Part shown: positions 15,502 to 46,907 of the stretch, piece after piece
Layout of the letters: each line of letters begins with the position of its first letter
Numbering within the stretch: position 1 is the stretch's first letter
Assembly: GCA_030062745.1 (NCBI GenBank)
Contig: CP099841.1
Span: 33,906,368-33,970,367 of the forward strand
Direction of reading: 5' to 3'
Source of the DNA: Capitulum mitella
Lineage: Eukaryota > Arthropoda > Thecostraca > Pollicipedomorpha > Pollicipedidae
Length of the DNA: 64,000 nt
Position numbers and translations under genes: made by a program
Notes under the pieces: generated by a model
What the model was told of the DNA's origin: nothing
What the model saw: only the letters and a program-made list of their open reading frames with translations
Databases searched by the model: none

Positions 15502-15558
<57 letters not shown>
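15502..15558. repeat. (TA)n microsatellite
   Basis: Uninterrupted alternating TA of about 57 bases in the CpG-depleted tract. Confidence 0.95.
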
Positions 15559-15561
<3 letters not shown>

Positions 15562-36197: not shown

Positions 36198-36665
36198 CTC
36201 TGTCCGTGTCCCGGGGTCGGTCTGCTCCGTCTGTCCGTGTCCCGTGGTCGGTCTGCTCCATCTGTCCGTGTCCCGGGGTCGGTCTGCTGCTCCGTCTGGC
36301 CGTGTCCCGGGGTCGGTCTGCTCCGCTCCATCTGTCCGTGTCCCGGGGTCGGTCTGCTCGTCTGGCCGTGTCCCGGGGTCGGTCTGCTCCATCTGTCCGT
36401 GTCCCGCGGTCGGTCTGCTCCGTCTGTCTGCGTCCCGCGGTCGGTCTGCGCCGTCTGTCCGTGATCCGCGGTCGGTCTGCTCCGTCTGGCCGTGTCCCGC
36501 GGTCGGTCTGCTCCGTCTGGCCATGTCCCGCGGTCGGTCTGCTCCGTCTGGCCATGTCCCGCGGTCGGTCTGCTCCGTCTGGCCGTGTCCCGCGGTCGGT
36601 CTGCTTCGTCTGTCTGCGTCCCGCGGTCGGTCTGCGCCGTCTGTCCGTGACCCGCGGTCGGTTCG
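36198..36665. repeat. 31 bp minisatellite, 14 full units plus partial ends
   Basis: The unit starts GGTCGGTCTGCTCCGTCTG and ends CCGTGTCCCGC. Most units are exactly 31 bp; a few are 30, 34 or 36. Units 7-8 (36411 onward) share private variants with units 13-14, so a block of six units was duplicated. Because 31 is not a multiple of 3, all frames stay open across the array, which creates false proteins. Confidence 0.92.
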
Positions 36666-42748: not shown

Positions 42749-43959
42749 ATTCGGGCCAGGGCCTATTTTAACATGTTAACTGGGGGGGCAAATGCCCCCC
42801 CAGTCGGGCACTTTGCCCCCCCAGTCAAGATCCTTTGCCCATGCAAGGAAAAAAACAGCCAGGTGTACTAGCGTACCCAGGAAGGTATTCCATCAAGCGC
42901 TGCGCTCGCAAAGCAGCATCTTATCAACGAAGGATGTGTTGAATCACTGAGTAATGTGGGAGCACACTTAGAAGCATCACTTTATAATACGTATTGCAGG
43001 CACACCTAATGACCGCTGGCGAGCGTGTTTCGTAATTAGTACGCCGGCACCCGATGCCGCGATTGTCTGGTGGGCGGCCAAGGCGTTTCATTGCATCGTA
43101 AGCACGTTAAAAATGATGATAACCATCTTTGATGTGTTCAAGCGCAAGAAAACTGAAGGGCGAGCTGGTGCGCAGGGCGGTTTCGCTATGGTGAGATAAG
43201 GTTTATATGAATGTGGTAACAGTCCAGCAGTGCTGTAGTCATCACCAATCATCCTGATCCGAAAACCCTGCTAAAATCCCAGTACCTGATTGGTAGAACT
43301 TCATTGAACTAGGCGGTTAAACCAGAGTTTTACGCGAGGAAAACAGAAAATTAATCAGTCATATATTAAAACCGTCAATCTTGCTGCTCCTAGTGCATGG
43401 GTTTGAGCATCCCATGAGCATGCTTTATCTGCTTAACGAACATGGCATGGCCCAGACTGCAGATAATGACGAATGCTGGTGATATCTCATTGAGGCGGGC
43501 CTAAGGCGAATATTTCAATCTGAGGTGACTTTTTTATTTTGGGGCCGATAACCTGGAAATGGAGAAGTTTGTTCTGCCTGTGTTAGGACAGCTTTTACAC
43601 TTCTGCGCAGCGTTGAAAAACATATGGCCAAAATTCGGTGAGAAAATGTATTTTGGGGATAGATTAGATTAACAGAAACTATCCCGGACAGGCAACCTAC
43701 TGTCTCATATAGGGAAGAATCAAAGCTGCCGCAACATCTCGCAAATATTCTGCCCATCGTTTGCAGACTGTGACTTATATATTTGAAGTACCACGCCTTG
43801 CCATGCCACGGCAACCCACGGTGCCGGGCTGGCAATTTCCCGCGCGTTCTTAGACGTCAAGATATTTAAGGACCACCTGCGTCAATGCAGAAAGTACCTT
43901 TTATAACGGAGGTCTGTGCTACTATGGCTGCACCACCACCCACAAAAGCCGAATTTTGG

Positions 43960-46185
43960 TTGACCGGTGCTCAGAACTGCCTTCGCGGGGAGAAGTGCTG
44001 CAGCAATATTTTCAGTCCCACCGTGTGGATAGGCTTACCCAGAGGTAGGTCAAAACACAGATCGTCCGCGAAATGATGAAGGTGTGGAACAAAACCCGTA
44101 TTCTCACTGCGCCGGAGCGGAACGTGATAAAGAAGCTCAACAGGAAGCTTGACCAGTACCAAAGGCAAATTCTGGAGGTTCAGCCCGGAAATTGACAAGA
44201 AGAATGGATTTAGGGACAACCTTAACAATGTTTTTGACCTTGTCCTTGTCGGCACCATTAAGATCATCAAAACCAAGAGGATAAAGACATTCTCTAGGCC
44301 CAAAGGGATCCAGGTCGCCGAGGCGTCATGGTGGTATTCGATAAGTTCCCTTCTGAGAAGGAGGAGCGAGCTCTTCAACGACAACAGTAGGCCGAAGCTT
44401 TAAAGGGCCCGCCGTTAGATTAAACAGCAGACCGAGCATGAGGCAACTGCCCAGCTGGAATACTCGCCTACCGACAACACATAATTGACAGATCAGGATG
44501 ACCCGCAGCCCTTGGCCATGCCTTCGAAGCGGCCCTGCAGGAGAGCCAAGAACATCGCCACTCCTGGTCAGGCAGCAGCCCTCGATCGGACCAAGCTCAA
44601 TGATCGCTCTGCAATTCACTTCCTATCGGCGACGGCTTCGGTCCTCGGCCACGACTCCTCTGAACTGGCGATCACAGAAGCTCGGGCAGGCGCGCACGTA
44701 GATCGCAGAGAAAAGCCATTGCGGACGAAATCTAGCATTCTTTCTCCGCGTCACCCCACCTGGTGGTTCACTGGGACGGCAAACTGTTACTGACGATGGA
44801 AAGGAAAAGGTGGATCGACTCTGTCATTGTAGCCGGTCCAAGAAGTGCCGCCAAGCTCTTCGGTGTTTGGAAGTTGCAAGTAGAGCCGGAGCAACGCCAG
44901 CCGACGTTGTCGCGCTTTGTCTGGAAGACTGGGAGGTTTCGGACAACGTCGTCGGCATGAGCTTCGACACCACCTCCAGCAATACTGGACAAGTTGTGGG
45001 AGCAAACACGCTTCTTCAGCAGAAGCTTGAGTGACGGCCTTTTCACTTTGCTTGTCGTCATCATATCGTCGAACTGGTGGCAGAGGCGGCTTTCTCCACG
45101 CGCTTCGGTCCGTCCTCGGGACCGCGATCTCCTTGTTCAAGAGCTTCAAGAAGAGATGGAGACTCATTTATTGGAACAAGTTTGAACCTATGGTGTATGA
45201 AGACCTGGAGCCAGCAGTGGCCGAGACTATGTTGTATGAGCTTTTCTCTTCCAATGATCGTTTCGTCGCCTTCTGCCGTGAGAAGCTCGCCGAAATCCTG
45301 CCTAGCGGTGATCATCGTTGGTTCTTTGAGGTTTCGATTATCCCCTTTGGTCAAGAGCCTCCACGGCGAATCAAGTTCCCCAGCCGGGTGCTCTCCACCG
45401 TGCCAGATGGTTCCATCGCACCAGATGGATGGGGCGCATAATCTGCGGGATCAAGATCTTCTGGCTTTGCCATCAGTTCTCCGTGACTCTCAGTGAACTG
45501 GGAGCACTCAAGCGCTTGGTCTCTTTCATGGTTGTTTTGTACGTCAGTGCATGGTTCTGTTCTTCATCGGCGGTCAGCGTTTCCGTGCACGACCTAGCCG
45601 TTCTGCCAAGCCTGATGTGAATGCTGAAATTTCGAAGGGGATCTCCAAGGAGTTTGCCGATCACCTATTATCTATTATGACATTATAGTCGACATATGAT
45701 TTATTATAACAATCACCTATTATGGTGCCCCAGCGAAGAACTGGCTGGTGTGTCGTTCTTCGACGAGGGCGTGCCGTGTGAGATGAAGACGAGGATGATC
45801 GCGGCACTCCAGGAACAGGGATCGGAGAGTCCTCCCAGCGAGCGCAGGTGGATCTCGCAGAAAAGGAGGTTCTCGTCCCAGGAAGATCATCGTCGACTTC
45901 ATTACCGCAAAGTCGGTGGGAAACCTGAAAGCCTACGGCATCAACATGGACTTCCTTGCCGCCGATCCCGCTGATTGGGAGACAGCACCTGGCTTCACGA
46001 ACGCTAAGGAAGTCCTGTGCGGGATCGCGGTAGTTAGCGACTTCGCCGAACGAGCTGTGACTCTTATCCAAGTATACAACAAGGTACTGACGAAGGATGA
46101 AGGGCAAAAGCAGTATCTGCTGCAAGTCGTCGAATAGCATCGTCGCCAGAACCCCGAGACCACTAAGAGGACTGAAGTATCATTC
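43960..46185 (+). pseudogene. Broken hAT-like transposase gene of an uncharacterised family
   Basis: Scattered plus-strand frames carry, in order, family motifs that I recall from many uncharacterised invertebrate proteins: an N-terminal helical part (44068-44190), a VHWDGKLL motif (44766), FDTTSSNTG (44963-44989), CRHHIVEL (45053), an FDEGVP segment (about 45760), and FAERAVTLI with LTKDEGQKQYLLQVVEEHR (about 46042-46145). The acidic residues at 44775, 44966 and 46048 are about 64 and 361 codons apart. That resembles the D-D-E spacing of hAT enzymes such as Hermes (D180, D248, E572), where a large insertion domain separates the second D from E. CRHH would match the hAT CxxH motif after the second D. 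Several frameshifts and stops break it, so no intact protein is made. No BED finger is visible. Confidence 0.8.
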
Positions 46186-46637
46186 CCACCTAAACCACAC
46201 TGCTGCCGACAGGGCCAGTGACCAATGACCTGAGACAGAATGCGAAGTGTCTTTCGATCCAGTGTGTCAAAAGGAGTACTATGATGTGCATTTTATGCAT
46301 ATCGTGCGCTTGGTTTAAAAAACTAAAGCACAAAACACGTTTGGGGCATTTCAGACATCCCTGAGCGAATCTCCCAGAGATCACAAGTCCAGGGAGAATG
46401 AGTTCTTGCTGGGGATAAATGAAATGGTGTCCTTTGAATTTAATGGGCTCGGAATGCACAAAAGCCAGCGCGAATTTCATCAAAATAAAATAAAATCCAG
46501 CACAAACGACATACAGTCTTCGTGTGAAAGTGCTTAAGAGTGCTGGACCAAGGCCATATTTTGCACACATGGTTTCCTCCAAAAGACATATCAGTTAATG
46601 ACAGAGTGCTGTGGAAGTGTTCATCGTAATTCGCCCT

Positions 46638-46639
46638 TA

Positions 46640-46681
<42 letters not shown>

Positions 46682-46695
46682 CCTTCCTTAGGAAA

Positions 46696-46739
<44 letters not shown>

Positions 46740-46748
46740 TTTCCTTAG

Positions 46749-46792
<44 letters not shown>
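46638..46792. repeat. Three (TA)n arrays separated by CCTTAGGAA spacers
   Basis: Three TA arrays of about 40 bases each (about 46638-46676, 46698-46738 and 46751-46792), separated by GTGTGCCTTCCTTAGGAAAGC and CCTTTCCTTAGGAA. Each spacer contains the palindrome TTCCTAAGGAA or TTCCTTAGGAA-like core. The array lies inside the transposon, near its right end. Confidence 0.9.
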
Positions 46793-46795
<3 letters not shown>

Positions 46796-46907
46796 GTGGA
46801 CAAAATTCAATAAGAACACAAATGCCTGGGGGGGTCTCAACCAATGCGTCTCGTTCGCAGAATTGCCCCCGCAGTCATTTTTCCTTAAAATAGGCCCTGA
46901 TTCGGGC

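Follow-up and report, generated by a model that had tools for sequence, protein, structure and literature searches.

A full-length, inactivated hAT-like transposon in Capitulum mitella and sister families that keep long open frames for the same putative transposase

The element described here occupies positions 42757–46899 of a 64-kb window, that is, the whole stretch of Capitulum mitella contig CP099841.1 that was analysed (positions 33,906,368 to 33,970,367, forward strand; contig 3 of the 477-Mb, 16-contig genome GCA_030062745.1), with a guanine-plus-cytosine content of 51%. It is bounded by a perfect 15-bp terminal inverted repeat, CAGGGCCTATTTTAA, flanked on both sides by a perfect 8-bp duplication, ATTCGGGC, and encloses a degraded gene carrying the motifs VHWDGK, FDTTSSNTG, CRHH and FAERAV (Table 1). 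An earlier note on this DNA had described an inverted repeat starting with CAGGG, the duplication and all four motifs; each was confirmed, the repeat to the base. With up to two mismatches allowed, CAGGGCCTATTTTAA matches the window only at these two ends (expected 0.15; 2 of 100 shuffles reach 2 matches). We consider the element to be probably a non-autonomous cut-and-paste DNA transposon of a divergent hAT-like transposase lineage with sister families that still look intact.

Frameshift-aware alignment of the enclosed gene with residues 8–746 of a related open frame from another element of the genome (L080, described below) gave 275 identical residues out of 711 (39%), along with 10 frameshifts and 6 stops. 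The acidic residues at 44775, 44966 and 46048, to which the earlier note had assigned codon spacings close to those of Hermes, are true codons for Asp, Asp and Glu. The spacings themselves did not hold for this copy: the three codons lie in three different reading frames, and no single frame of the window links them because neither (44966 − 44775)/3 nor (46048 − 44966)/3 is a whole number. Three frames, 10 frameshifts and 6 stops rule out an intact gene, and the window copy is a pseudogene.

The family to which this copy belongs is about 4.1 kb long and is found on many contigs. Genome-wide, CAGGGCCTATTTTAA occurs 1,023 times (507 forward and 516 reverse), compared with 0 + 1 for the reversed control. 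We fetched 36 further end pairs (20 in a first set and 16 in a second), nearly all 3.7–8.3 kb apart, from listed places on contig 1 corresponding to approximately the first 100 of the 1,023, and they are therefore a non-random sample. Adding the window copy itself and the inner ends of a nested locus gives 38 end pairs, 34 of which have a perfect 8-bp duplication (19/20 in the first set, 13/16 in the second, the window and the inner nested pair). Lengths from 4 to 12 were tried, and each duplication found was exactly 8 bp, so that the recurrence proposed as a check in the earlier note was seen in this sample, and the other lengths it had named as refuting were not. Rounded and with gaps excluded, identity to the window copy ranges from 87 to about 100% among the 19 full-length members of the first set. 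The 34 duplications show a bias towards T at position 2 and A at position 7 (27 versus 15.5 expected; 0.14% of 5,000 within-duplication shuffles reach 27), and both occur together in 6 duplications versus 1.9 expected (1.1% of shuffles); the alternative pattern nnnTAnnn was found in 2 of the 34. The form nTnnnnAn is the target preference of Ac-type hAT elements.

Two loci of this family differ in structure from the rest. In L066 (G000:C1:3399906-3408498), one copy is nested in another and both have a separate 8-bp duplication, so the family has inserted into itself. L050 (G000:C1:24574631-24575704) is a derivative of 774 bp that retains the family's ends and is flanked by an 8-bp duplication; it resembles a miniature inverted-repeat transposable element (MITE).

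Lesions were compared in 27 copies, namely the window copy, L031–L049 of the first set and the 7 of 16 second-set loci without large inserts, deletions or nesting; positions outside an alignment's reach were scored as absent. Nine of the 16 window lesions are shared by 23 or more of the 27 copies. The most widely shared is a frameshift at residue ~279 (27/27), followed by a stop at 298 and a frameshift at ~430 (26/27 each), a stop at 739 (25/27), frameshifts at ~129 and, with wide tolerance, at ~653 (24/27 each), and frameshifts at ~28 and ~316 and a stop at 398 (23/27 each); a stop at 594 is present in 16/27. Some of the shared lesions are missing from L034 and L031, which may be older branches. 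Among the other 25 copies, changes are spread nearly equally over the three codon positions (195/198/216), with a nonsynonymous-to-synonymous ratio (pN/pS) of 0.69, a value near neutral. The residues of interest are nonetheless kept in most of the 27 dead copies (first Asp 25, second Asp 26, Cys 26, His 26, Arg 24, Trp 27, Glu 26), a retention that reflects descent rather than selection.

The gene was already dead in the ancestor of the examined copies. Since the lesions are common to these copies, the family spread when already dead, with the enzyme supplied in trans, and the amplified lineage therefore had no enzyme of its own as a single protein. When the 110-residue frame of the window was used as query, 149 of the 150 rows scored (from 1,154 candidates) carried the same 110-residue frame and one carried 243 residues; for this reason, whole dead copies have probably been amplified into the hundreds. 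The family looks non-autonomous though full length, unlike the usual short derivatives, and its helper transposase may be rare, unscored or extinct. As in Ds-type elements and hAT MITEs, inactivating lesions predate the spread, the ends are preserved, the element's own gene is useless and mobilisation occurs in trans; the difference is that here a whole ~4.1-kb element with a full-length, frameshifted gene was amplified, beyond the short forms with internal deletions.

The same protein was found in elements with other ends. A degenerate DNA pattern for FDTTA[SW]NTG matched 35 genomic places (control 0), one of which, L079, lies in a separate element that has a perfect 16-bp inverted repeat starting with TAGGG, TAGGGTGGCACTTATT, and an 8-bp duplication, ATGAGGGG. 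Its 439-residue frame, used as query, yielded 102 genomic rows (96 of 2,181 candidates scored), which group into family A (82–100% identity; element ends TAGGGTGGCAC), family B (52–54%; element ends TAGGGCGGCAC) and remoter sets that are largely decayed. A 747-residue frame free of stops is present in 8 of the 17 full-length family-B rows, and 8 rows of the family have the same score. L080, a member of family B, has a single open frame of 747 residues; its element occupies C11:17237509-17241033 and is flanked on each side by ATATATAT. Just 5′ of this frame, positions 495–530 of L080 contain splice-site-like sequence, with an in-frame ATG at 529, and an upstream exon is possible.

Five family-B copies (G000:C2:13485240, C4:142826, C9:405182, C11:17237501 and C13:8030967) are bounded on both sides by ATATATAT and the 11-mer end, and one family-A copy lies likewise in ATATATAT; in all of these the duplication length is indistinguishable from the AT repeat. 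The arrangement suggests that family B prefers AT runs as targets, although the search pattern itself required ATATATAT and hence gives no rate.

The 16-mer TAGGGYGGCACTTATT occurs 73 times in the genome (39 + 34; control 0), and 71 of these exact ends are correctly oriented and have a protein match no more than 3 kb away. Conversely, we examined 56 of the 102 rows for adjoining ends, leaving aside second fragments of one locus, rows below 50% identity and two incomplete rows at 54% (C6:3184262 and C1:325546). Among 38 family-A loci, the exact 16-mer was found at the 3′ end in 30, at the 5′ end in 25, at both in 20 and at neither in 3; among 18 family-B loci, it was found at the 3′ end in 16 and at neither end in 2. 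Two family-B matches on contig 8 (G000:C8:4992952-4994211 and C8:5016625-5017884), with frames of 554 and 692 residues, have no exact 16-mer within 3 kb. Mainly because of this link between protein and ends in families A and B, the protein is very probably a transposase. Open frames that are long or complete persist in both families, so the lineage taken together may remain active.

We compared these elements with the hAT superfamily. According to PMC3942097, hAT elements measure 2.5–5 kb and have 10–25-bp repeats and 8-bp duplications. PMC6027215 lists D180, D248, R318, W319 and E572 as key residues of Hermes and D301, D367, C401, H404, R463 and E719 as those of Ac, and gives (T/C)AGNGNNG as the end pattern. 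The ends TAGGGTGG and TAGGGCGG satisfy this pattern, and the 8-bp duplication is present in the window-family pairs counted above and in L079 of family A. The two Asp residues are separated by 65 residues in L079 and 64 in L080 (68 in Hermes, 66 in Ac), and the second Asp and the Glu by 344 and 334 (324 in Hermes, 352 in Ac); the three are candidate catalytic residues. The value of 344 includes a small internal duplication in the CRHH region of L079 (positions 2290–2370), which lengthens the distance. The Hermes-like spacing proposed earlier thus holds in these relatives rather than in the window frame, and CRHH stands in place of the hAT C-x-x-H in the window gene, L079 and L080 alike, as had also been proposed. 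Its Cys follows the second Asp at 29 residues versus 34 in Ac, and an R-W pair, at a spacing unlike that of Hermes or Ac, is likewise present in L079 and L080; both motifs would correspond to those of hAT enzymes. The Glu is followed by 45 residues in L079 and 37 in L080. Features shared with the hAT superfamily (Hermes, Ac, Tol2, Buster and Tip groups) include the 8-bp duplications, short T/CAGGG ends, a size of 2.5–5 kb, D-D-E spacing, C-x-x-H, R-W and the frequent presence of non-autonomous relatives.

Several observations weigh against our interpretation. The duplication is absent from 4 of the 38 end pairs (L034, L051, L060 and L061), the window end CAGGGCCT lacks the last G of (T/C)AGNGNNG, and the pN/pS of 0.69 falls short of 1. 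Searches for a long open frame among window-family copies were negative, the maximum being 243 residues in one (150 of 1,154 candidates scored) and 383 in another (150 of 1,499). The earlier note had named copies of the protein outside such ends as refuting; the protein lies mostly inside them, but 5 of the 56 family-A and family-B loci have no exact 16-mer on either side, and the exact 5′ 16-mer was found in none of the 18 family-B loci, exact matches only being sought. Differences from hAT enzymes also concern the protein itself. The R-W pair lies 140–154 residues past the second Asp (Hermes, 71; Ac, 97), and the sequence following the Glu does not match the F/S/R positions that PMC6027215 gives for plant hATs. 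The intact 747-residue protein did not match PF05699, the hAT dimerisation domain, or any other Pfam entry up to an expectation value (E) of 10, and neither the L080 nor the L079 frame had a BED or other zinc-finger Pfam match, though an upstream exon could still encode one.

In database searches, neither the 747-residue protein nor a four-sequence profile had a match above noise in Pfam, NCBIfam or the PDB, and single-sequence and profile searches of the PDB returned nothing better than E 0.28. Pieces of the window and the L034, L079 and L080 frames, searched against Pfam, NCBIfam and PHROGs, gave weak hits only, far below cut-offs, the best being TIP39 (E 0.012), EBNA2_Core (E 0.014) and an HNH endonuclease (E 0.044). 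No relative was found in an IMG/VR protein search or among GTDB contigs; two IMG/VR records retrieved with the motif pattern (L077, 884-residue frame, and L078, 128-residue frame) were rejected, having by eye the motif alone in common with the protein. The literature searches, which reached parts of the sources, turned up no recognisable description of this protein family. Because no searched profile recognises the protein, membership in hAT rests on likeness of ends, duplication and residue spacing. Of what the earlier note suggested, the ends, the recurring duplications and the residue layout stand; the RNase H-like core split by a large insertion domain is a prediction. Judged from this layout, we have good confidence that the protein works like a hAT transposase and moderate confidence that it is one.

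The protein could instead be a passenger, a captured gene in elements moved by canonical hAT transposases encoded elsewhere in the genome. Such enzymes appear to be available, as the genome contains 54 matches to PF05699, all outside the window (with 150 of 211 candidates scored), and the window family did move although its own gene was dead. A passenger would hardly be expected, however, in two further families with different ends, nor next to 71 of 73 exact TAGGGYGGCACTTATT ends, on which ground we rejected it as the principal explanation; moreover, the 3.5-kb family-B element, read minus its first 141 bases, has no other sense frame of at least 150 residues, and the residue pattern suits a DDE enzyme. 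We consider a passenger very unlikely. It is less far-fetched, if still unlikely, that the protein is a transposase from some other superfamily that makes 8-bp duplications (P, KDZ/Zisupton or Merlin) or from an unnamed one. P and Merlin elements make duplications of this length. Zisupton does so too according to PMC12730594, and both the failure of any hAT profile to recognise the protein and the undetected BED finger would fit such an origin. On the other side stand T/CAGGG-type ends, R-W, C-x-x-H and a distance from second Asp to Glu near 324–352, all of them published hAT features, as well as the weak T2/A7 bias with its Ac-type form; ends and residue spacing would suit hAT better than KDZ/Zisupton, P or Merlin.

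A related and rather doubtful proposal is a separate, uncatalogued lineage of 8-bp-duplication transposases, sister to hAT or convergent with it, that kept the hAT active-site layout and lost both the BED finger and the traces that a profile would recognise, its whole dead copies being amplified while sister families stayed intact. There is, finally, some chance, tentative as we rate it, that this is an ordinary decayed transposon of a family already filed in a repeat library, which concerns novelty only and overlaps with the explanation we favour. Six motif strings had no match in the literature searched, and the motifs are no chance remnants, as they align in the intact 747-residue relative at the identity reported above.

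Under the favoured explanation, a non-autonomous hAT-like element, the window gene would encode, or would once have encoded, the element's own transposase, of a family without Pfam recognition, in which conserved D, D, C-x-x-H, R-W and E follow an arrangement close to that of hAT enzymes, possibly on an RNase H-like fold. The window family would be moved in trans by a transposase recognising its CAGGG ends. This enzyme may bind the subterminal G-run/C-run repeats, which are possible transposase-binding sites, and would cut at the T/CAGGG ends. hAT enzymes leave hairpins on flanking DNA, and the putative enzyme may do the same before the element is joined across an 8-bp stagger.

Table 1 Features of the element and its flanks in window coordinates.
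Feature	Position	Strand	Remark
Left 8-bp target-site duplication ATTCGGGC	42749..42756		
Left terminal inverted repeat CAGGGCCTATTTTAA	42757..42771	+	
Subterminal G-run/C-run repeats	42772..42840		TGCCCCCCCAGTC twice on left; 12/13 copy at 46864-46876
Dead transposase-like gene	43907..46158	+	aligned to L080 residues 8-746
First candidate catalytic Asp, VHWDGK	44775..44777	+	D312 of L080
Second candidate catalytic Asp, FDTTSSNTG	44966..44968	+	D376 of L080
CRHH, C-x-x-H motif	45053..45064	+	C405/H408 of L080
Arg-Trp pair	45423..45428	+	R515-W516 of L080; compared with Hermes R318-W319
Candidate catalytic Glu, FAERAV	46048..46050	+	E710 of L080
(TA)n array within element, close to right end	46638..46792		
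Right terminal inverted repeat, perfect complement of left	46885..46899	-	
Right 8-bp target-site duplication ATTCGGGC	46900..46907		

Elsewhere in the window, a 31-bp minisatellite of ~15 copies (36199–36662) overlaps several long open frames, and a perfect (TA)29 array lies at 15502–15559. Scans of the window for tRNA genes and Rfam families gave no match.

The analysis assigns to transposons a protein family without Pfam recognition, which genome annotations presumably label as uncharacterised. Should this assignment be confirmed, the genes concerned ought to be treated as transposase genes and masked, not counted as host genes. The intact sister families, with their defined ends, make the relationship to hAT testable, and the window family illustrates clearly how a dead transposon can be amplified in trans at full length.

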